Positions 9,160 to 53,390 of a stretch of 64,000 nt of DNA are shown piece after piece. The stretch comes from a virus. The notes beneath the pieces are model-generated. The model did not search any database. It saw only the letters and a list, made by a program, of their open reading frames with translations, and was not told where the DNA came from. The DNA lies in IMG/VR virus record IMGVR_UViG_3300027770_000027, positions 163,353 to 227,352 of that record; one strand, 5' to 3'. The position numbers and the translations under genes are program-made. Each line of letters begins with the position of its first letter. Within the stretch, counting starts at the first letter, position 1.

Positions 9160-9549
9160 TTATTCGATTGGTTTATAGTCACAAACTCCAAAAATTCGAT
9201 CTTCATTTAAGAAGGCAACATTACTTAAACCATTGATAGAATTTACCTTCAATCCTCGATCATTCGGAAACACTACATGATCTCCTTCTTTGACAATTTT
9301 ACAATCAGGTCCGGCAAGGATGACCTTACCAACTCGCCAAGTGTGTTCTACTGCATTAATAGGAATCCACAAGCTTCCGCGTCGGATTTCTGTTCCAGAC
9401 TCATTAATATCCGCATACTGAATCATTAAAATATTGTCTAATACTTTTGTGATATTCCAGTCATCCAATTCATAGCTCTTTCCCTGATAGTGTTCAATTT
9501 GAATTTTACCACCAATGCGGTCTTGTAGGTTTGTGGGTCTGTCTATCAT
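9160..9549 (-). CDS. GroES-like co-chaperonin, possibly a gp31 analogue
   Basis: 129 aa. From residue 58 on the sequence follows the chaperonin-10 barrel: RRGSLWIPI, a variable loop, RVGKVILAGPDC, VKEGDHVVFPND, ending AFLNEDRIFGVCD. In T4, gp31 replaces GroES so that GroEL can fold the major capsid protein. An extra 50 N-terminal residues (IGGKIQIEHYQGKSYELDDW) precede the barrel. A late promoter TTAAATA lies 5 nt before ATG. No mobile-loop IVL-type motif could be fixed, so the identity is only moderate. Confidence 0.5.
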   Translation of the reverse strand: MIDRPTNLQDRIGGKIQIEHYQGKSYELDDWNITKVLDNILMIQYADINESGTEIRRGSLWIPINAVEHTWRVGKVILAGPDCKIVKEGDHVVFPNDRGLKVNSINGLSNVAFLNEDRIFGVCDYKPIE

Positions 9550-9553
9550 ATTT

Positions 9554-9949
9554 TTATTTAAGTGATTTGTTTAATTGTTCAAGTGTTGAATTATAGAGAT
9601 TAATTTCTCTTTGAGATAATTCCATGTTATTAGCAATAATATTTGCATCCGAATCTTCTTCTTTTGATTTAGAAGAAGCTTTTTTAATGTAAGATAATTT
9701 ACAACTTATTTTAGGCAAAAGAGTTTTGTAAAATTTACCAGCCAAAAAATTTTCTTTAGACAATGGAGTTTTATACACCCATCTATTAAAAGTAACATTT
9801 ACTATTTGAGCTAAAGAATTATCTGCCATAGATAACCATCTATTGGTAATAAAAATAGATGGTATACTATGTTCTTCTGGGATCTTAGAAGACTTCTTAA
9901 GAATCCAATTTAAATAAGGAAACAGATCATCTTTATATTGAGGTTTCAT
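9554..9949 (-). CDS. Possible clamp-loader small subunit (gp62-like)
   Basis: 131 aa with ATG 9949 in a TAATG overlap with the DUF366 stop. LFPYLNWILKK followed by SIFITNRWLSMADNSLAQIVN recalls the start of T4-type gp62 proteins, where an N-terminal WLS/LSYF helix after a short aromatic stretch is conserved. The C-terminus has a Ser/Lys/Glu-rich linker and a final helix. T4 gp62 is 187 aa, so this would be short. The clamp is encoded in this window, but gp44 was not seen. Treat it as a hypothesis. Confidence 0.3.
   Translation of the reverse strand: MKPQYKDDLFPYLNWILKKSSKIPEEHSIPSIFITNRWLSMADNSLAQIVNVTFNRWVYKTPLSKENFLAGKFYKTLLPKISCKLSYIKKASSKSKEEDSDANIIANNMELSQREINLYNSTLEQLNKSLK
9555..9561 (-). 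promoter_or_regulatory. Late promoter TTAAATA overlapping a stop codon
   Basis: Minus-strand TTAAATA, 5 nt before the ATG of the GroES-like gene. The TAA of the upstream gene (9556-9554) uses the last bases of the motif. Confidence 0.6.
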
Positions 9950-10542
9950 TAAATGACTTTGGTGGTGGCTGTGAAACAATCTTGGATAATTTCATAAAAG
10001 ATATCATCAATCTTATAAGCCAATTTTTCGACCAAGTCATCTGTAAGATAAAGAGAGAATGCAAAACTAGGAGCTCTGCTTCCTGCACTGATATTAATTC
10101 CAAAATGTCCCAGAGCAACTGTATCTGTAACCTTAGTAATGCTTACACTGGCTTTGCCCCAGTCTTCTTTACCATCTTCACCCATGCCCTTTTTACGAAG
10201 CATCAGATCATCTCCGTTTACTTCAACATCATAAAGTCCAAAAATATCTGTTCTAAAAAGATTAGCAATTTCTTGAACAAATAATCTTTGAAAGAAGACC
10301 GCTCCAATCGGATTCATATTAGGAATCTCCCAACATACACTTAGAGCATCGTCTGAGTATATAAAATCATTTGATAGCTTATCTTCAAGATCAATTAAAT
10401 TATCTTTAACATCCATATTGCCTCGTGTAATATAGGCAACTCCAAGTGGATTATATTCCTTGCGAAAAATTTGATATCCAAAACGATTGTGGATTAAAGA
10501 TCCGTCATAGTCTTCATCATTATAAATTCTTGATCTGCTCAT
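9949..10542 (-). CDS. DUF366 family protein
   Basis: 197 aa. Landmarks match DUF366: EDYDGSLIHNRFGY at the start, GNMDVKDNLIDLED, then FFQRLFVQEIANLF, NGDDLMLRK, KASVSITKV and LGHFGINISAG. DUF366 is known mostly from archaea and some bacteria and has no established activity. The start at residue MSRSR (10542) avoids a 35-nt overlap with the gene before; a longer form from 10602 cannot be excluded. It closes a block queC, amidotransferase, glycosyltransferase, DUF366, so a role in 7-deazaguanine metabolism is a reasonable inference from position, but it is not shown by the sequence. Confidence 0.55.
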   Translation of the reverse strand: MSRSRIYNDEDYDGSLIHNRFGYQIFRKEYNPLGVAYITRGNMDVKDNLIDLEDKLSNDFIYSDDALSVCWEIPNMNPIGAVFFQRLFVQEIANLFRTDIFGLYDVEVNGDDLMLRKKGMGEDGKEDWGKASVSITKVTDTVALGHFGINISAGSRAPSFAFSLYLTDDLVEKLAYKIDDIFYEIIQDCFTATTKVI

Positions 10543-10567
10543 AAATATATGATAGCTGTTAACTAGC

Positions 10568-11251
10568 TTAAGTCCCGAATTTTTTTGAGAAGAGTTTTGC
10601 ACTGTCCATCCAGTCTGGGGTGTTCATACTGTCTCCCAGCCCATGATGAACTACTCGAATAGGCAATACCCCCATTTTGACCTTTTTGGCGTTGCAGTCT
10701 AAACAAAAAGCCAAATCATAGTGGTGAAAATTAAAATCTTTATCAAATTTAGCACCTTTAGTAGTCACTGCTTCTACATCAATTGCTAAGAACAAACCAT
10801 CTAATACCAGAGCTCTAGAATTTGTGGGCCCGAATACAGTTGTCCACACTCTACTATCCGCCGCATGGGCAACTTCTCCTACATGAGTAGGTCTTTCAGA
10901 CATCAAATGCCACGCAGGAGCTTTGGAGAGATTGATAGATTTGGCACCAGCCAAACCAGTGACTTCATAAGGAGAATTTTGTAATTTGTCTACTAAAAGC
11001 AAATCTTCCAATTCAACATCATCATGTACAAAAAGTAAAATACTTTTCTTGTGTTTTGGATCTTCTAAAAAAGTATTGTAAAGTTTGGACAAACCTTCTT
11101 TATTATCCTTTACAATAACAAAATCAAAAACTCCTTTACGAAACAAATCGTTGGAGTCATATTGACGCTGTAAGGATTTAAAAATTGGCCTGTTTTCAAA
11201 TTCTTTGATGTCTTTTGCTTGAGTTGCAATTACTGCAGTTACTTTTTTCAT
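10568..11251 (-). CDS. Glycosyltransferase-like protein in the queC block
   Basis: 227 aa. ILLFVHDDVELED near residue 70 is the acidic DxD-like motif of the GT-A 'glycosyltransferase-like' family (PF13712 type), followed by GLAGA, RVWTTVFG and LVLDGLFLAIDVE, then the HHYDLAFCLDCN helix with a second acid, and RVVHHGLGDS. These fit a GT2-related nucleotide-sugar transferase. The acceptor is unknown. It overlaps the amidotransferase gene by 4 nt (ATGA), so it belongs to the same transcript as queC. A DNA-base or virion acceptor are both possible. Confidence 0.65.
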   Translation of the reverse strand: MKKVTAVIATQAKDIKEFENRPIFKSLQRQYDSNDLFRKGVFDFVIVKDNKEGLSKLYNTFLEDPKHKKSILLFVHDDVELEDLLLVDKLQNSPYEVTGLAGAKSINLSKAPAWHLMSERPTHVGEVAHAADSRVWTTVFGPTNSRALVLDGLFLAIDVEAVTTKGAKFDKDFNFHHYDLAFCLDCNAKKVKMGVLPIRVVHHGLGDSMNTPDWMDSAKLFSKKFGT

Positions 11252-11886
11252 ATAAAATAAGGACTTTCGTAAGAAAATGTTCCTTCTTTTGAGAAAGAAC
11301 CTTCTTTTAATTTAAACCAAATTCCATCTTCTTCAACGCATGTAGAATCTTGAAACTGAGAAGACGAAAAAGAATCTTTATCCATCCACAATGAACTACC
11401 CGCCTTGACCACATACACCTCTCCGTCCCACACAATCCAACTGGTAAGTAATCCTTGATAGTTGGAATATGTTTTTGATATACTGTAATTTTTAATTAAA
11501 TCATGGGGTATCATTTGGGAGTCCACCTCAAATGGAGGATTACTATTAATTTCTTCAAAATTTGTTATAATACCATTGTGAGCTACAAAACAACCATCCT
11601 GGTCAAATGGGTGAGTTGTTTTGTCACTCCATTTAGTTTCTGTACTATTAGTGGGTGCTCTGGAATGAAAAAGAAAATAATCGTAAGGTTGATTACTCAA
11701 TGCTAACTTATATTGATAATTTTCAAAATCTGTATCTGTCAGGTGTCCTGGCAGTTTGTGTATAAAATATGATTTTGAGTTTCTACAAACCGCCATGAAC
11801 CCCGTAGAATAACTACCTCGATGTAAATTTAATTTGTAAAGATTAAATGCTTTTTCAAAATTTGAACTGCCTGCAATTCCACACAT
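11248..11886 (-). CDS. Class II glutamine amidotransferase, stand-alone
   Basis: 212 aa starting MCGIAGS, with the catalytic Cys at position 2; ATG 11886 is chosen because this family needs that N-terminal cysteine. Further landmarks are LHRGSYSTGF, LFHSRAPTN, THPF and CFVAHNGIITNFEE (glutamine pocket and oxyanion Asn-Gly), then DSQ. No synthase or isomerase domain follows. The gene starts 4 nt after the queC stop. In archaea and phage 9g a GATase is fused to QueC (Gat-QueC) for archaeosine formation; here the two parts are separate. It likely delivers ammonia to a preQ0- or CDG-derived substrate. Confidence 0.8.
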   Translation of the reverse strand: MCGIAGSSNFEKAFNLYKLNLHRGSYSTGFMAVCRNSKSYFIHKLPGHLTDTDFENYQYKLALSNQPYDYFLFHSRAPTNSTETKWSDKTTHPFDQDGCFVAHNGIITNFEEINSNPPFEVDSQMIPHDLIKNYSISKTYSNYQGLLTSWIVWDGEVYVVKAGSSLWMDKDSFSSSQFQDSTCVEEDGIWFKLKEGSFSKEGTFSYESPYFI

Positions 11887-11890
11887 GATA

Positions 11891-12631
11891 TTATAATACT
11901 GTGCAATTATATTTTTGCCAATCAATGATTCGCGAATATTGTAGAGGATCTACCTTTTTAAGTTGGATCCAGCCTGCCAATCTTGCTGAACAACTTGGAC
12001 ATTCTCCACATGACTTTTCGTGTTCGGTATAGCAAGTACGAGTTTGTGTAAAATCTACACCCAATTCAATTCCATATTCTATAATTTCTTTTTTTGTTTT
12101 ATCAATTAAAGGTGCTTTAATTTCTATTTGTTTGCGCCTGTTCAAAGAAAGAATAGTATTTAACCGGTTCCTAAATCCTGGTGTACAATCCCAGAACCCA
12201 GAAGTATCATCTGCTTTGGCAGCTCCGTATAGAACATGTTCTGCTCCTACACTTTCTGCCATACCAATTGCCAAAGACAAAAATATCATATTTCTATTGG
12301 GAACGTATGCAGTATTTTGTGGATCTCCGATAACCTCTTTCATTTTAGGAACATCTACGTCATCTCTTGTCAAGGCTGAATCAAATTTTAAAAATTTTAA
12401 AGCTAATGGAAATCTACTATACTTTATTTTTTCAGCATGTTTTGATTTAAAAATAATATTTGTAATATAATCCTCTGCTCTGGTTAATTCACTGATATTT
12501 CTTTGTCCGTAATCTATACCTAAAGCATATACTTGTTCATAATTTGTCAATGCATGATGCAAAACAACTGTGCTATCCATGCCACCACTGTATAAAACAA
12601 CACAAGACTTCGGAGAAAACGATGTATCCAT
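11891..12631 (-). CDS. queC: 7-cyano-7-deazaguanine (preQ0) synthase QueC
   Basis: 246 aa. PP-loop VVLYSGGMDSTV near residue 13, then ALGIDYGQRN, YVPNRNMIFLSLA, and a C-terminal zinc site TCYTEHEKSCGECPSCSARL. QueC converts CDG to preQ0 using ATP and ammonia, through the amide ADG. ATG 12631 is preferred over 12685 because the 18 extra residues are hydrophobic noise and would overlap the divergent gene. It heads a minus-strand block with a GATase, a glycosyltransferase and DUF366; QueD, QueE, FolE2 and a DpdA-like protein are on the plus strand far to the right. Confidence 0.93.
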   Translation of the reverse strand: MDTSFSPKSCVVLYSGGMDSTVVLHHALTNYEQVYALGIDYGQRNISELTRAEDYITNIIFKSKHAEKIKYSRFPLALKFLKFDSALTRDDVDVPKMKEVIGDPQNTAYVPNRNMIFLSLAIGMAESVGAEHVLYGAAKADDTSGFWDCTPGFRNRLNTILSLNRRKQIEIKAPLIDKTKKEIIEYGIELGVDFTQTRTCYTEHEKSCGECPSCSARLAGWIQLKKVDPLQYSRIIDWQKYNCTVL

Positions 12632-16947: not shown

Positions 16948-16955
16948 TATTTATT
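16948..16955 (-). promoter_or_regulatory. Late promoter AATAAATA overlapping the DUF1501 stop
   Basis: Minus-strand AATAAATA, 5 nt before ATG 16942. The TAA ending the second DUF1501 gene (16956-16954) shares two bases with it. Confidence 0.6.
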
Positions 16956-18318
16956 AAGCAATAACCTCTTTGACCACATTTCCGTATACATCTGTGAGCC
17001 TAAATGGTCTACCATTGTATTCATAAACAAGTTTGGTGTGATCAAATCCCATCAAAGCAAGCATGGTTGCATGGAGATCGTGAATATGAACAATATCTTT
17101 GACTGATTTACCTCCAGTTTCATCAGTCTCTCCGTAACGCTGCCCACCTTTAACTCCACCTCCGGCCATCCAAACACTAAAGGCTTTGCCGTTGTGATCT
17201 CTTCCTGGAGCGCCTACTCCACCACCTGCCTGGACTGTACGACCAAATTCTCCACCCCAAACCACAAGAGTAGAATCCAGCATCCCTCTTTGCTTCAAGT
17301 CTGTAAGAAGAGCACCAAATGGCTGATCGTATCTTCCTGCAGTTCTTGTCATGGCGTTCTTAATATCCATGTGATGATCATAGCCACCTACATTCACCTG
17401 CACAAAACGAACTCCACGTTCAACCAAACGTCTTGCAAGCAACATCTTAGCCCCTTCCTCAGTTTCACCGTACAAAGCCTTTGCTTCTGCAGATTCTTTA
17501 GAGATATCAAAAGCATCAGTAGCTTCAGTTTGCATTTTAAATGCTGTTTCAAAAGCCTCGATGCGTGACTCAAGCTGGGCATCTCTTTGAAGTTTTGCGA
17601 GATGGTTTGAGTTCAGTGTATTTGCAAAATTAATCTGCCTTCTTTGTCTTTCAAGAGTAGAAAATTCGCTGCGAATGTTGGCTAAAATCTGTTCTGCTTT
17701 TATTCCTCTACGATATGATACGTTACAACCCTGATACATTCCTGGCAAGAAAGCACATTGTCTCCATTCTGAAGCTCCGTTTAAGGAAATAAATCCAGGC
17801 ATGCTTTGATTCTCTGTACCCAGCCCATACACCATCCAAGATCCCATGCTAGGCTTGGAAAGCTGAGCAGATCCAGTTGCCATCATTTTTTGAGCAATAT
17901 TATGATCTGGAATTTCTGTCTGCATGCTGTTAATGATAGCAATATCATCAGCATGGCTTCCCAATTGAGACCAAACTTCTGAATAATGAATACCAGATTT
18001 TCCAAACTGTTTGAACTCAAAAGGAGAAGCTAGCAAATTGCCAAACTCATGTTTTACTCCATCTCTCTTTTGAAGTTCTGGTTTGTAATCAAACGTGTCA
18101 ACATGAGATGGTGCTCCAGTTGCAAACAAGTGAATGATAGATTTTGCTTTCACTGGCCAGTGAGGCTTTTTTGGAGCAGTTGGAGAAACTGCTTCAGCTG
18201 TCATTGGATTTAAACCATAAAGAGAAGCCAATGAAAGTCCTCCAAGTCCCCAACCAAAGTCGGTAAGGAATTCTCTACGTGTTTGTGGGTCGCTATTGTG
18301 ATGTCCGCAGTCGCTCAT
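16954..18318 (-). CDS. DUF1501 protein with Tat signal (second copy)
   Basis: 454 aa. A twin-arginine signal (TRREFLTDFGWGLGGLSLASLYG) opens the protein, so export of a folded protein to the periplasm is expected. Family landmarks: SIIHLFATGAPSHVDTFDYKP, IPDHNIAQKMMATGS, GVRFVQVNVGGYDHHMDI, LVVWGGEFGRT, GRDHNGKAFSVWMAGGGVKGG and YGETDETGG. DUF1501 proteins belong to the alkaline phosphatase/sulfatase-like superfamily and are abundant in Planctomycetes and Verrucomicrobia, usually next to DUF1549/DUF1553 genes, which are missing here. The gene begins 6 nt after the first copy and is intact. Its role in a phage is unknown; it could act on the cell envelope or a surface polymer late in infection. 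Confidence 0.9.
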   Translation of the reverse strand: MSDCGHHNSDPQTRREFLTDFGWGLGGLSLASLYGLNPMTAEAVSPTAPKKPHWPVKAKSIIHLFATGAPSHVDTFDYKPELQKRDGVKHEFGNLLASPFEFKQFGKSGIHYSEVWSQLGSHADDIAIINSMQTEIPDHNIAQKMMATGSAQLSKPSMGSWMVYGLGTENQSMPGFISLNGASEWRQCAFLPGMYQGCNVSYRRGIKAEQILANIRSEFSTLERQRRQINFANTLNSNHLAKLQRDAQLESRIEAFETAFKMQTEATDAFDISKESAEAKALYGETEEGAKMLLARRLVERGVRFVQVNVGGYDHHMDIKNAMTRTAGRYDQPFGALLTDLKQRGMLDSTLVVWGGEFGRTVQAGGGVGAPGRDHNGKAFSVWMAGGGVKGGQRYGETDETGGKSVKDIVHIHDLHATMLALMGFDHTKLVYEYNGRPFRLTDVYGNVVKEVIA

Positions 18319-18324
18319 AAAATA

Positions 18325-19584
18325 TTAGGCTAAAAGTTCTTTTACTACAGTCCCATTATACACTATTGCTACAGGACGTCCATCTGGAGTTTCTAGTTTA
18401 GAATCGGGATTAATTCCAATTTGATTATACATCGTAGCTGCAAGATTTTCTGGTGATAGAGCTGACTCTTCGACATCTCCGCCAGTAGCATCAGATGCTC
18501 CGTGAATATAACCTCTCTTAATACCTCCACCAGCTAGAGCTACTGAGAATACTCTCGGCCAGTGATCTCTTCCGCCGTCTTTATTAATTTTAGGAGTACG
18601 ACCAAATTCAGAACTTACCATAACAAGAGTAGAATCTAACATGCCACGTTGATCTAGATCTGTAATAAGAGCAGCATATGCTTGATCAAATGCAGGTAAG
18701 GTTTTGTTCATGTTTGCACCAATATTAGTATGCATGTCCCAACCACCATAAGTGACAGATACAAAGCGTACTCCAGACTCTACCAACCGACGAGACATTA
18801 ATAGTCTTTGACCTGCTTGATTAAGGCCATAAGCTTCTCTTAGGGCATCTGATTCTTTAGTTAAATCAAAAGCTCCCTTCGCCTTTGGAGAAGAAATTAA
18901 ATCATATGCTTGCTGATAGAAAGTATCCATTGCAGCAAGGTTGTCACTCTTTTCGAGATATCTAAAATGTTTATCTACGGTATCAAGAATACTACGTCTT
19001 TTATCAAATCGTTCTTCACTAACAGTTGATTGCAAATCTCTTACCTTAAATCCTGGAGCAGCTGGATCAGAGCCAAGACTAAAAGGACCGTAAGCGTTAG
19101 ATAAATAACCAGTACCAGCGACTTCCCCATGAGCGTTAGGAACAGAAACATAAGCTGGCAAACTATTACGACCACCTAATTGTTGAGCTGTTACTGAACC
19201 AAAAGAAGGATATGTCACAGCAGGAGATGGACGATAACCAGTAAACATAGTGGATGTACCTCTTTCATGAGCTGCATCTCCGTGAGTCATGGAACGGACT
19301 ACTGAAATTTTATCTGCAATTTTTGCTGTCTTTGCTAAATTTTCTGAAAAGTGGACTCCGGGAATTACTGTCTGCACAGATTTGAGAGGCCCTCTATACT
19401 CTGCAGGGGCTAAAGGTTTTGGATCCCACATTTCTTGCGCTGCAGCTCCACCGGGCAAATAAATGTGAATGACTGATTGAGCTTTTGGGGTGAGGGGCGA
19501 CTCTGCTTGAAGTTTTAAGGCGTCTCCTAACGAAAGACCTAAACCTCCAAATAGACCAGTGTAAAGAAAATCACGTCTGTTCAT
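18325..19584 (-). CDS. DUF1501 protein with Tat signal (first copy)
   Basis: 419 aa. Tat signal NRRDFLYTGLFGGLGLSLGD, then SVIHIYLPGGAAAQEMWDPK, MTHGDAAHERGTSTMFTGY, GVRFVSVTYGGWDMHTNI, MVSSEFGRTPKINKDGGRDH and ALAGGGIKRGYIHGASD: the complete set of DUF1501 landmarks, with no frameshift. It differs clearly from the second copy, so the pair is an old duplication or was taken up as a pair. A phage late promoter TTAAATA ends 5 nt before ATG, so the gene is wired into phage late expression. By eye, some stretches are richer in GC than the flanking phage genes, as expected after transfer from a bacterium. Confidence 0.9.
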   Translation of the reverse strand: MNRRDFLYTGLFGGLGLSLGDALKLQAESPLTPKAQSVIHIYLPGGAAAQEMWDPKPLAPAEYRGPLKSVQTVIPGVHFSENLAKTAKIADKISVVRSMTHGDAAHERGTSTMFTGYRPSPAVTYPSFGSVTAQQLGGRNSLPAYVSVPNAHGEVAGTGYLSNAYGPFSLGSDPAAPGFKVRDLQSTVSEERFDKRRSILDTVDKHFRYLEKSDNLAAMDTFYQQAYDLISSPKAKGAFDLTKESDALREAYGLNQAGQRLLMSRRLVESGVRFVSVTYGGWDMHTNIGANMNKTLPAFDQAYAALITDLDQRGMLDSTLVMVSSEFGRTPKINKDGGRDHWPRVFSVALAGGGIKRGYIHGASDATGGDVEESALSPENLAATMYNQIGINPDSKLETPDGRPVAIVYNGTVVKELLA

Positions 19585-44958: not shown

Positions 44959-45711
44959 ATGTCAGAAGAAAATTATCTATTAATCAGTGATGACGGTCCT
45001 GGATTTCATACTATTGAAGGAGAAGGAGAACTTATTGGAAGACCAAGTGTCTTTATGCGTCTCTTTGGATGCAATTTGACATGTAAAGGTTGGGCTACTC
45101 CAGATTCTCCTTGGGGATGTGATTCCTTTATCTCTTGGTCTAAGAAAAATAAATATACATTTGAACAAATGTTCAATTTTTATGAAGAAAATGGACTAGC
45201 AGAAAAGTTAATGCGCGGAGATATTTGGAAAATTACAGGAGGAGAACCAATGCTACGCCAAGAACCTCTTTTAAATTTTGTAAGAGCATTTGTTGAGCGT
45301 TTTAATTTTTTACCCACTATAGATTTTGAGACCAACGGAACCATCAAGCCAAATGATTTATGGGTAAATGAATTCCAAGCAACCTTTACAGTGTCTCCTA
45401 AAATGTCCAACAATGGAGATCCTGTAGAAAAGAGATTTAAACCAGAAGTATTAGATTGGCACTGTGTTAATGATTCTTGTTTTAAGTTTGTTATAGGGTC
45501 AGAACAAGATTTGGAAGAATTGAAGGATGTTTATCTGTCTAGTACAGAATTTGCTATTCATTCTAGTCGAGTTTGGCTGATGGTGTGTGCAGGATCTCGT
45601 CAAGAACATATTGAACGGGCGGGTTCTGTTGCAGAATATGCTAAAAAATTAGGATTAAATTTTTCACCGCGCTTGCAACTTGTAATTTGGGATAAAGCTC
45701 TTAAAGTTTAA
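44959..45711 (+). CDS. queE: 7-carboxy-7-deazaguanine synthase QueE, variant cysteine motif
   Basis: 250 aa. GPGFHTIEGEGELIGRPSVFMRL is the substrate-side start, KITGGEPMLRQ the GGEP SAM motif, TIDFETNGTI and FTVSPKMSNNGDP the distal motifs, and LQLVIWD the end. The iron-sulfur ligands read CNLTCKGW then WGCDSF, a CX3CX11C spacing rather than the usual CX3CX2C. It forms CDG from CPH4, the third step to preQ0. It starts 6 nt after gp46 and is followed by a glycosyltransferase and gp43. Confidence 0.9.
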   Translation: MSEENYLLISDDGPGFHTIEGEGELIGRPSVFMRLFGCNLTCKGWATPDSPWGCDSFISWSKKNKYTFEQMFNFYEENGLAEKLMRGDIWKITGGEPMLRQEPLLNFVRAFVERFNFLPTIDFETNGTIKPNDLWVNEFQATFTVSPKMSNNGDPVEKRFKPEVLDWHCVNDSCFKFVIGSEQDLEELKDVYLSSTEFAIHSSRVWLMVCAGSRQEHIERAGSVAEYAKKLGLNFSPRLQLVIWDKALKV

Positions 45712-49637: not shown

Positions 49638-50495
49638 ATGTTCAAGAAAGCATTAATAGCTCACGAAGCTCCTAGAGCAGCAATGGATAGAGTACAAGAA
49701 ATTACCGACTATGATTATTGTTTGGTACATCTCTTAGAGGAAGACCCCACTTATTTAAAATTTTTTAAAGAAGCTAAAGATAAAGGTAGATCCATCATCA
49801 TGGATTGTAGTCTGTTTGAATTGGGTCATGCATTTGATCCGGAAAAATATTATAAATGGCTTTTAGAAATACAACCAAATGAATACATAATTCCAGACGT
49901 GTGGCAAGAGTGTGAATCTAATTTGAAATCTTACAAAGAATTTACTTCAAAATTTGATCTCTCCAAATTAACTGGGAAACGCATAGGTGTATTACAGGGA
50001 AGGTCTTATGAAGACTTTAAACGAGCATATCTTTTCATGAAAACAGAGGCAGATAAGATTGCTATAAGTTTTGGATATGATTATTACTGGGAAAATTTTT
50101 CAACCAGTTGGCAAATTTCAGGACTTTGGATCGGTCAAAATTTACGTAATGTTGCAGACTTCGAAAAGATGGTAGCTAAGCCAACATCATATGCTCACGG
50201 AAGAACCCATTTAATTGAAAGTTTGTTTGAAGATGAAATCTGGGATACTACAAAGCCTCATCATTTATTGGGATGTGGAATTCCTATAGAATTTGCAAAT
50301 CTAGACCCATCAATTGAAAGTATTGATACCTCTCATCCTGTAATGTGTGGATTTTATGAAAAATCCTACGAAGAACCCACAACCATGTGGAGTAAAATTC
50401 ACGAAAAAATGGTTGATGTATATGATAAAGATATTTCAGACTCACAGTGGAACTTAATCAAATCTAACATAACACAATTTAAAAATCTTGTATGA
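49638..50495 (+). CDS. dpdA: DpdA-like DNA 7-deazaguanine transglycosylase
   Basis: 285 aa. The fold pattern of tRNA-guanine transglycosylases is visible: IMDCSLFELGHAFD in place of the DSGGFQ segment, YIIPDVWQEC, RIGVLQGRSYEDFK (the P-V-V-Q-G region), KIAISFGYDYYW, and HHLLGCGIPIEFANLD followed by IESIDTSHPVMCGF, where the Asp of IDTSHP is the likely nucleophile. DpdA enzymes exchange G for preQ0 in DNA. The gene sits between the polymerase and thyX. Full-length tRNA enzymes are longer and have a zinc site, which is absent here, as in phage DpdA. Confidence 0.72.
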   Translation: MFKKALIAHEAPRAAMDRVQEITDYDYCLVHLLEEDPTYLKFFKEAKDKGRSIIMDCSLFELGHAFDPEKYYKWLLEIQPNEYIIPDVWQECESNLKSYKEFTSKFDLSKLTGKRIGVLQGRSYEDFKRAYLFMKTEADKIAISFGYDYYWENFSTSWQISGLWIGQNLRNVADFEKMVAKPTSYAHGRTHLIESLFEDEIWDTTKPHHLLGCGIPIEFANLDPSIESIDTSHPVMCGFYEKSYEEPTTMWSKIHEKMVDVYDKDISDSQWNLIKSNITQFKNLV

Positions 50496-52928: not shown

Positions 52929-53390
52929 ATGGATATATTTGCATCATCTTTATTTGAAAGTACCAAAATAATTGAATTGGGTAGTTGTGCCTTTCGACAG
53001 TGGAGAGCTACAAATTCTCATTGTCGTTTTATTCATGGTTATCAGTTAAAGGCTAAGTTTTGGTTTAGCGGAACAGAATTGGATGATAAAAATTGGGTTG
53101 TAGACTTTGGAAGTCTAAAAGATCTTAAGAAAATCTTACAATCCCAATTTGATCATACCTTGTGTATTGCTCAAGATGATCCATTACTACCATCATTTAT
53201 TCAATTACATGATAATGGTGGATGTGATTTGAGAATCATGGAAGGTGTGGGTATTGAAAAGACTGCAGAGTGGTGTTTTAATGCAGCTGATAAATATATT
53301 AGGGAATCTACCTATGATCGCTGTTGGGTGAGTAAAGTTGAAGTATGGGAACATACAGAAAATTCAGCAACCTATAGGCGTCCCTTTTAA
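52929..53390 (+). CDS. queD: 6-carboxytetrahydropterin synthase QueD, variant metal site
   Basis: 153 aa. CAFRQWRATNSHCRFIHGYQLKAKFWF, then NWVVDFGSLKDLKKIL, FDHTLCIAQDDP, EKTAEWCFNAADKYI and VEVWEHTENSATY follow the PTPS/QueD fold, with the DHT and E-H residues of the active site. The canonical first zinc His and the HGH pair are not conserved (R-Q-W and HGY); this looks like the known HGY subfamily seen in proteobacteria. It would make CPH4 from dihydroneopterin triphosphate, step two to preQ0. A strong terminator follows. Confidence 0.82.
   Translation: MDIFASSLFESTKIIELGSCAFRQWRATNSHCRFIHGYQLKAKFWFSGTELDDKNWVVDFGSLKDLKKILQSQFDHTLCIAQDDPLLPSFIQLHDNGGCDLRIMEGVGIEKTAEWCFNAADKYIRESTYDRCWVSKVEVWEHTENSATYRRPF

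Follow-up and report, generated by a model that had tools for sequence, protein, structure and literature searches.

DUF366 as a probable partner of QueC in the 7-deazaguanine pathway of phages, bacteria and archaea

The window analysed here, a stretch of 64,000 nucleotides, is the final part (163353-227352) of a 227352-base record of a T4-like phage (IMG/VR record IMGVR_UViG_3300027770_000027). It contains four consecutive minus-strand open reading frames that encode the 7-cyano-7-deazaguanine synthase QueC, a stand-alone class II glutamine amidotransferase (GAT), a glycosyltransferase (GT) and a protein of the family DUF366 (Table 1). The coordinates of the frames agree with the tight spacing described in an earlier reading of the letters without database searches (the sequence-only reading), namely a 4-nt gap between QueC and GAT, a 4-nt overlap between GAT and GT and a 25-nt gap between GT and DUF366. 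Past DUF366, the co-directional array extends into a gene of 131 aa, for which neither a Pfam nor a PHROG match was obtained, and then into a GroES/gp31-like gene. The order QueC-GAT-GT-DUF366 is kept in the distinct viral contigs L012-L018 and L034, with inserts in some of them, and the variant order QueC-GT-GAT-DUF366 is found in the viral contigs L022 and L234-L243. Since the four genes stay in order across distinct viral contigs, their association is not a matter of chance.

In phages, the presence of DUF366 is tied to that of QueC. A whole-record search found QueC in all large phage records with an intact DUF366 (17/17), in 7 of them far from DUF366, and QueC is located within 5 kb of DUF366 at 9 of the 25 fully flanked viral DUF366 loci. 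At fully flanked viral loci DUF366 immediately precedes the 131-aa gene and gp31, which is the same slot that GT occupies. The residues D51, E53, D54, Q85, G110, D111, D112, K130, S134, H146 and N150 are invariant in 25 DUF366 proteins of QueC-positive phages and nearly invariant in 15 cellular homologues. They are not retained in 13 DUF366-like proteins whose phages gave no QueC in a search that covered whole records for the large ones and only the flanks for small contigs. Most of these relics have Glu or Gln in place of K130, the alignment has a gap at the position of D51, and almost none of them retains the GDD motif. Because the DUF366 residues decay without QueC whereas those of GT stay, the alignments suggest to us that selection acts on DUF366 only where a 7-deazaguanine route exists and on GT regardless. 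The relics (L320, L322 and those of other QueC-less phages) are still open reading frames in the same slot despite the loss of residues.

Microcystis phage MaAM05, the sole named 'phage' with DUF366, was rejected as a phage example due to a near-exact match (99-100%) to a Vampirovibrio chromosome. The stretch in question (L045; MW495066.1, 106417-126956), in which DUF366 is found among secDF, fabI and ompA, is probably bacterial chromosome inside a phage record.

A genome scan of cellular organisms yielded 64 DUF366 loci and 39 genomes with DUF366. An open reading frame search placed QueC directly upstream of DUF366 at 49 of the 64 loci, and at one additional locus (L097) a search with hidden Markov models puts QueD and QueC just upstream of it. 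On a contig from Thermococci (L102) QueC is two genes away from DUF366. Continuous queD-queC-DUF366-queE runs were found at L091, L092, L096 (with folE), L097 and L098 and a queC-DUF366-queE run at L095, and the hosts of these runs are several unrelated bacterial metagenome-assembled genomes, assigned to Deltaproteobacteria, Clostridiales, Eisenbacteria and unclassified bacteria. A strong QueC match is present in 36 of the 39 genomes, the tRNA-guanine transglycosylase TGT in 37, QueD in 36 and QueF above its cut-off in 20. In a phylum search, DUF366 was found in 81 of 115 Thermococcus relatives, a count of DUF366 alone that is not paired with QueC. Replacement of QueD, QueE or QueF by DUF366 was rejected, as these enzymes coexist with it in many genomes. 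DUF366 occurs alongside QueD and QueC, and in several operons QueE, and therefore replaces none of them. A dGTPase-like HD gene comes after queE in two queC-DUF366-queE operons of Deltaproteobacteria (L095, L098).

A role of DUF366 in the pathway is well supported by its gene context, by its joint occurrence with QueC in genomes of three kinds and by the loss of residues where QueC is missing, and so is the suggestion of the sequence-only reading that it could belong to the route as an unknown enzyme. Very probably, DUF366 is a member of the 7-deazaguanine pathway that has been overlooked and that acts together with QueC in phages as well as in bacteria and archaea.

The predicted structure of DUF366 (predicted local distance difference test, pLDDT, 87) gives a first indication of what this component might do. 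Its top foldseek match is PH1033 (PDB 2ddz) with a template modelling (TM) score of 0.76, and the next matches are biotin protein ligases (BPL; TM about 0.5, E 3e-5) and LplA, taken together with TM scores of 0.43-0.56, E values of 1e-5 to 1e-4 and a probability of 1.0. The DUF366 profile reaches the BPL of Aquifex in a hidden Markov model search (E 0.003), and in that alignment the ligase Asp, the catalytic Lys and the Asn of the GIN motif pair with the GDD, the Lys and the HxGxN of DUF366; hhalign against a single BirA target returned nothing. The equivalents of the ligase Asp and Lys, D112 and K130, are invariant in the 25 DUF366 proteins of QueC-positive phages and in the 15 cellular ones. 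Ligases of the BPL/LplA fold activate carboxylates with ATP, and the substrate of QueC, 7-carboxy-7-deazaguanine (CDG), is a carboxylate. Because the fold and the Asp, Lys and Asn residues ally DUF366 with carboxylate-activating ligases, we tentatively propose that DUF366 may bind or activate the carboxylate of CDG at or next to the QueC step, a possibility to which we give somewhat less than even weight.

Several observations weigh against this view of DUF366. Many of the cellular loci come from one lineage, the Gastranaerophilales, and the locus counts overstate independence. The cells that have DUF366 hold QueD and QueC, QueE in several operons and QueF in about half of the cases, and no canonical step is obviously missing. 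DUF366 is lacking from the modified phages 9g and nt-1 and from many organisms with QueC, E. coli among them. As most viral records are fragmentary, no absence is ever proven, and the genome-wide search for DUF366 covered part of the records that carry only GT. The DUF366 structures are predictions, and the adenylate loops GRGRxxR of BPL and RxSGGG of LplA occur in 0 of 92 DUF366 sequences, which weakens the designation as an ATP-dependent ligase.

The completeness of the canonical route in genomes with DUF366 and the lack of an adenylate loop would both suit an inert partner of QueC, i.e. a scaffold, a chaperone or a channel for CDG or 7-amido-7-deazaguanine (ADG), in which the ancestral ligase pocket is kept for binding only. 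However, the acidic, Lys, His and Asn residues that are invariant across archaea, bacteria and phages look like chemistry and not like packing, and we place this explanation on the unlikely side. It is unlikely, too, that DUF366 is a CDG-protein or CDG-amine ligase that joins CDG to lysine or another amine, much as BPL does with biotin. The BPL fold, the retained Asp, Lys and Asn of the ligases and the strict linkage of DUF366 to the CDG-consuming QueC would fit such an activity, for which the protein carboxydeazaguanylation by members of the QueC family offers a precedent (PMC13329287). Yet the missing adenylate-binding loop argues against it as well, no conserved small gene for an acceptor protein was noticed beside DUF366, and in cells DUF366 adjoins ordinary genes for tRNA queuosine or archaeosine. 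The more far-reaching version, in which DUF366 would be a new ATP-dependent CDG-amine ligase, with a protein lysine or a small molecule as the acceptor, leading to an undescribed derivative in DNA or on protein that GT might decorate, in QueC-positive phages only, appears improbable to us.

GT had been considered for the route in the sequence-only reading, which imagined a base that is first amidated and then glycosylated. Its AlphaFold model (pLDDT 93) matches majastridin (2nxv/2qgi) in foldseek with an E value of 1e-10. H76-D77-D78 is invariant in 66 sequences, and the HDD and the other invariant residues are kept in every group, with or without QueC. At fully flanked viral loci the 131-aa gene and gp31 come right after GT, and QueC is near (within 5 kb) at 10 of 32 fully flanked GT loci. 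In a whole-record search none of the 15 large GT records without an intact DUF366 at the slot contained QueC, where records may be incomplete; whole records without QueC but with an intact GT include those of 226, 212, 211 and 163 kb. On the GT tree the presence of QueC changes at least 5 times and GT is retained, and many phages with DUF366 and QueC do not have this GT at that place. It is very unlikely, then, that GT glycosylates an amidated 7-deazaguanine in DNA to form a hypermodified base of a new kind, with DUF366 assisting as an accessory enzyme. The tight gene order in the QueC-positive group, the modelled GT-A fold with its intact active site, the sugar-nucleotide epimerase gene that L017/L018 carry between GAT and GT as an insert and a DpdA-like gene that overlaps the start of GT in one QueC-less phage group would speak for such a link to DNA modification. 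These arguments are outweighed because GT is present in phages with neither QueC nor a DpdA-like gene: the slot holds an intact GT in phages that have no QueC, most of which have no DpdA-like gene either, and these include the records of 163-226 kb. A hexosylated 7-deazaguanine is therefore disfavoured and not the best reading of the locus. In the survey of phage genomes that the sequence-only reading had called for, GT occurs mostly without queuosine genes in related phages, an outcome that this reading had itself named as counter-evidence, whereas DUF366 tracks QueC. GT is probably a core syntenic gene of the phage lineage with a substrate of its own that is unrelated to the route, and only a neighbour of it.

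In L032 (7198-8001) and in L151 and L153-L157, with no QueC nearby, a gene of another TGT-like family, phrog_20335, either overlaps the start of GT or directly adjoins it. This family is homologous to the phrog_19058 family described below (hhalign 98.9%).

QueC scores 182 bits with PF06508 (cut-off 22) and 162 bits with the equivalog TIGR00364 (cut-off 150). Its motifs SGGMDS and VPNRN are present, YGQRNISE lacks the His of YxQxHxxE, FWDC stands in place of YPDC, and the cysteines are arranged as C(x)7CxxCxxC compared with C(x)8CxxCxxC in the signature. The family matches of GAT are weak or general (PF13522 with 16.1 bits, below the cut-off; glmS; phrog_18128, E 6e-15; phrog_4736, E 1e-12). 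The two genes are separate and not fused, and their adjacency is conserved; the adjoining pair is present in the Vibrio phages nt-1, F86 and 2.275.O, too. GAT is likely the ammonia-supplying partner of QueC, i.e. one half of a split Gat-QueC.

Table 1 Features of the QueC-DUF366 locus and of the 7-deazaguanine route in the window
Feature	Position	Strand	Basis
DUF366 (PF04017), BPL/LplA-like fold, 197 aa	9949..10542	-	PF04017 63.3 bits (cut-off 29.9)
QueC, 7-cyano-7-deazaguanine synthase, 246 aa	11891..12631	-	PF06508, TIGR00364, motifs
GAT, stand-alone class II glutamine amidotransferase, Ntn nucleophile Cys2, 212 aa	11248..11886	-	MCGIAG start at 11886
GT, GT-A fold glycosyltransferase, 227 aa, HDDV motif	10568..11251	-	PF13712 27.1 bits (cut-off 27); model
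131-aa conserved gene	9554..9949	-	after (DUF366)/GT in all fully flanked relatives; boundary of the variable block
GroES/gp31-like co-chaperonin, syntenic anchor	9160..9549	-	phrog_3188 GroES E 5e-5; PF00166 E 9e-4, below cut-off
QueE-like radical SAM protein (7-carboxy-7-deazaguanine synthase)	44959..45711	+	phrog_2076 E 2e-44; matches QueE of nt-1, Saguaro, 9g
Divergent TGT/DpdA-like protein (phrog_19058), candidate DNA guanine transglycosylase	49638..50495	+	deep profile, TGT residues
QueD (6-pyruvoyl-tetrahydropterin synthase family)	52929..53390	+	PF01242 69 bits; phrog_2389

Further genes of the route lie elsewhere in the window (Table 1), and FolE was not found in the genome. The TGT model PF01702 had no match in the whole record or in the protein encoded at 49638-50495, and phmmer with DpdA1, DpdA2 and mycobacteriophage DpdA as queries found no transglycosylase. 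The DpdA-like gene was first spotted by reading motifs in the vicinity of QueE and QueD and was then examined with a deep profile and negative controls. Against TGT this profile reached a probability of 77% and an E value of 2e-5, compared with 0.1% for two negative controls, and the known DpdA1, put through this test, scored worse. Comparing shallow profiles with TGT and DpdA gave no information, and there the known DpdAs failed as well. The TGT-type residues D56, D87, G121, LLG and D230 are invariant in 61 sequences of the phrog_19058 family, and Q120 is present in 60 of the 61. Among 26 well-flanked viral relatives, QueD is located within 5 kb of the DpdA-like gene in 24, QueE in 22, FolE in 21 and QueC in 20. 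The family includes a protein of the Campylobacter phage CP220 (CPT_0056) and one annotated as DpdA in Flavobacterium phage immuto, and a high level of dADG modification was reported for Campylobacter phages without a recognised DpdA (PMC6884629). Because the genome holds the DpdA-like family, QueE and QueD, these genes cluster in relatives and the Campylobacter phages are reportedly modified, a system for 7-deazaguanine modification of DNA is likely in this phage, as far as homology can indicate.

In such a system QueD and QueE would make CDG, and QueC, using ammonia from the adjacent glutaminase, would amidate it towards ADG/preQ0 or G+, with DUF366 perhaps acting on the carboxylate at or beside this step. 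The DpdA-like enzyme would then put the modified base in the place of guanine in DNA, and FolE activity may come from the host. Taken as a whole, we consider it probable that the locus is the QueC arm of a phage system for 7-deazaguanine in DNA, with DUF366 as a component and GT unrelated to it. That the genes instead raise the queuosine content of host tRNA, as was suggested for phages that have genes for preQ0 and lack a recognised DpdA (PMC6884629) and as the missing PF01702 match in the phage would allow, is highly doubtful in view of a TGT-superfamily DpdA-like gene which clusters with queD, queE, folE and queC in relatives and whose family extends to CP220 of the Campylobacter phages, which are reported to carry much dADG.

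The proposed system resembles the Gat-QueC/DpdA system of phage 9g, which produces dG+ (Hutinet et al. 2019, PMC6884629), in combining QueC and a class II glutaminase with QueD, QueE and an enzyme of the TGT family in one genome. It differs from that system in its separate GAT and QueC genes, in a DpdA-like protein from another, divergent family, in the additional DUF366 and in that the search for FolE found none. The dPreQ0-dG+ loci of the Vibrio phages nt-1 and F86 belong to T4-like phages as well and have adjacent queC and GAT genes a few genes from gp31/GroES; in contrast to the present locus, they carry DpdA2 and FolE beside QueC and have neither DUF366 nor GT at that place. Relatives of the DpdA-like protein in the CP220 group (dADG) and in immuto are 40-51% identical to the homologue L147, and in immuto the protein occurs alongside QueD, QueE, FolE and QueF. 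However, the CP220 group and immuto show no match to DUF366 and have another gene order.

Outside the phages, PH1033 is assigned to the same family as DUF366 by its sequence (E 9e-62 in a search with a mixed profile) and by predicted fold, but it is a solved structure of unknown function whose pathway was not known before. The BPL/lipoate ligase superfamily shares with DUF366 the predicted fold and, in the alignment, the Asp before the catalytic motif, its Lys and the GIN Asn, whereas DUF366 is a short stand-alone domain without the GRGRxxR/RxSGGG loop and without a biotin or lipoate context. QatC and Cap9 are deazaguanylases of the QueC family that ligate the CDG carboxylate to a protein N-terminus (PMC13329287). 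There the QueC homologue is the ligase, while here QueC appears to be canonical and DUF366 is an extra protein.

DNA modification by QueC together with DpdA is already known (PMC6884629). For DUF366 (PF04017), no link to the 7-deazaguanine pathway was found in the open literature, a search that had subscription papers and supplementary tables outside its scope. PF04017 is not named in the indexed text of the 2026 paper on the QueC family (PMC13329287), and the tested DUF366 proteins matched no NCBIfam model and no informative PHROG model. The role of DUF366 is thus provisionally regarded as undescribed, and within the open literature covered by the search the sequence-only reading was right in stating that no role in 7-deazaguanine synthesis is known for GT or DUF366. 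The modification of phage DNA with 7-deazaguanines blocks restriction enzymes, and the QueC pathway also supplies tRNA queuosine, archaeosine and the newly found deazaguanylation of proteins. That DUF366 tracks QueC and decays without it implies an unrecognised member of a textbook pathway of four enzymes and gives a lead to the function of PH1033. In addition, the phrog_19058 family offers a candidate for the DpdA of phages that lack a recognised one, for example the Campylobacter CP220 group.

Two further observations concern other parts of the window. Two adjacent DUF1501 proteins (16954-18318 and 18325-19584; 449 and 372 bits), which are without PHROG coverage, are encoded in this phage genome. 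Between 30689 and 43073 lies a run of about 12 genes, most of them related to sugars, including GT2 glycosyltransferases and an NAD epimerase.

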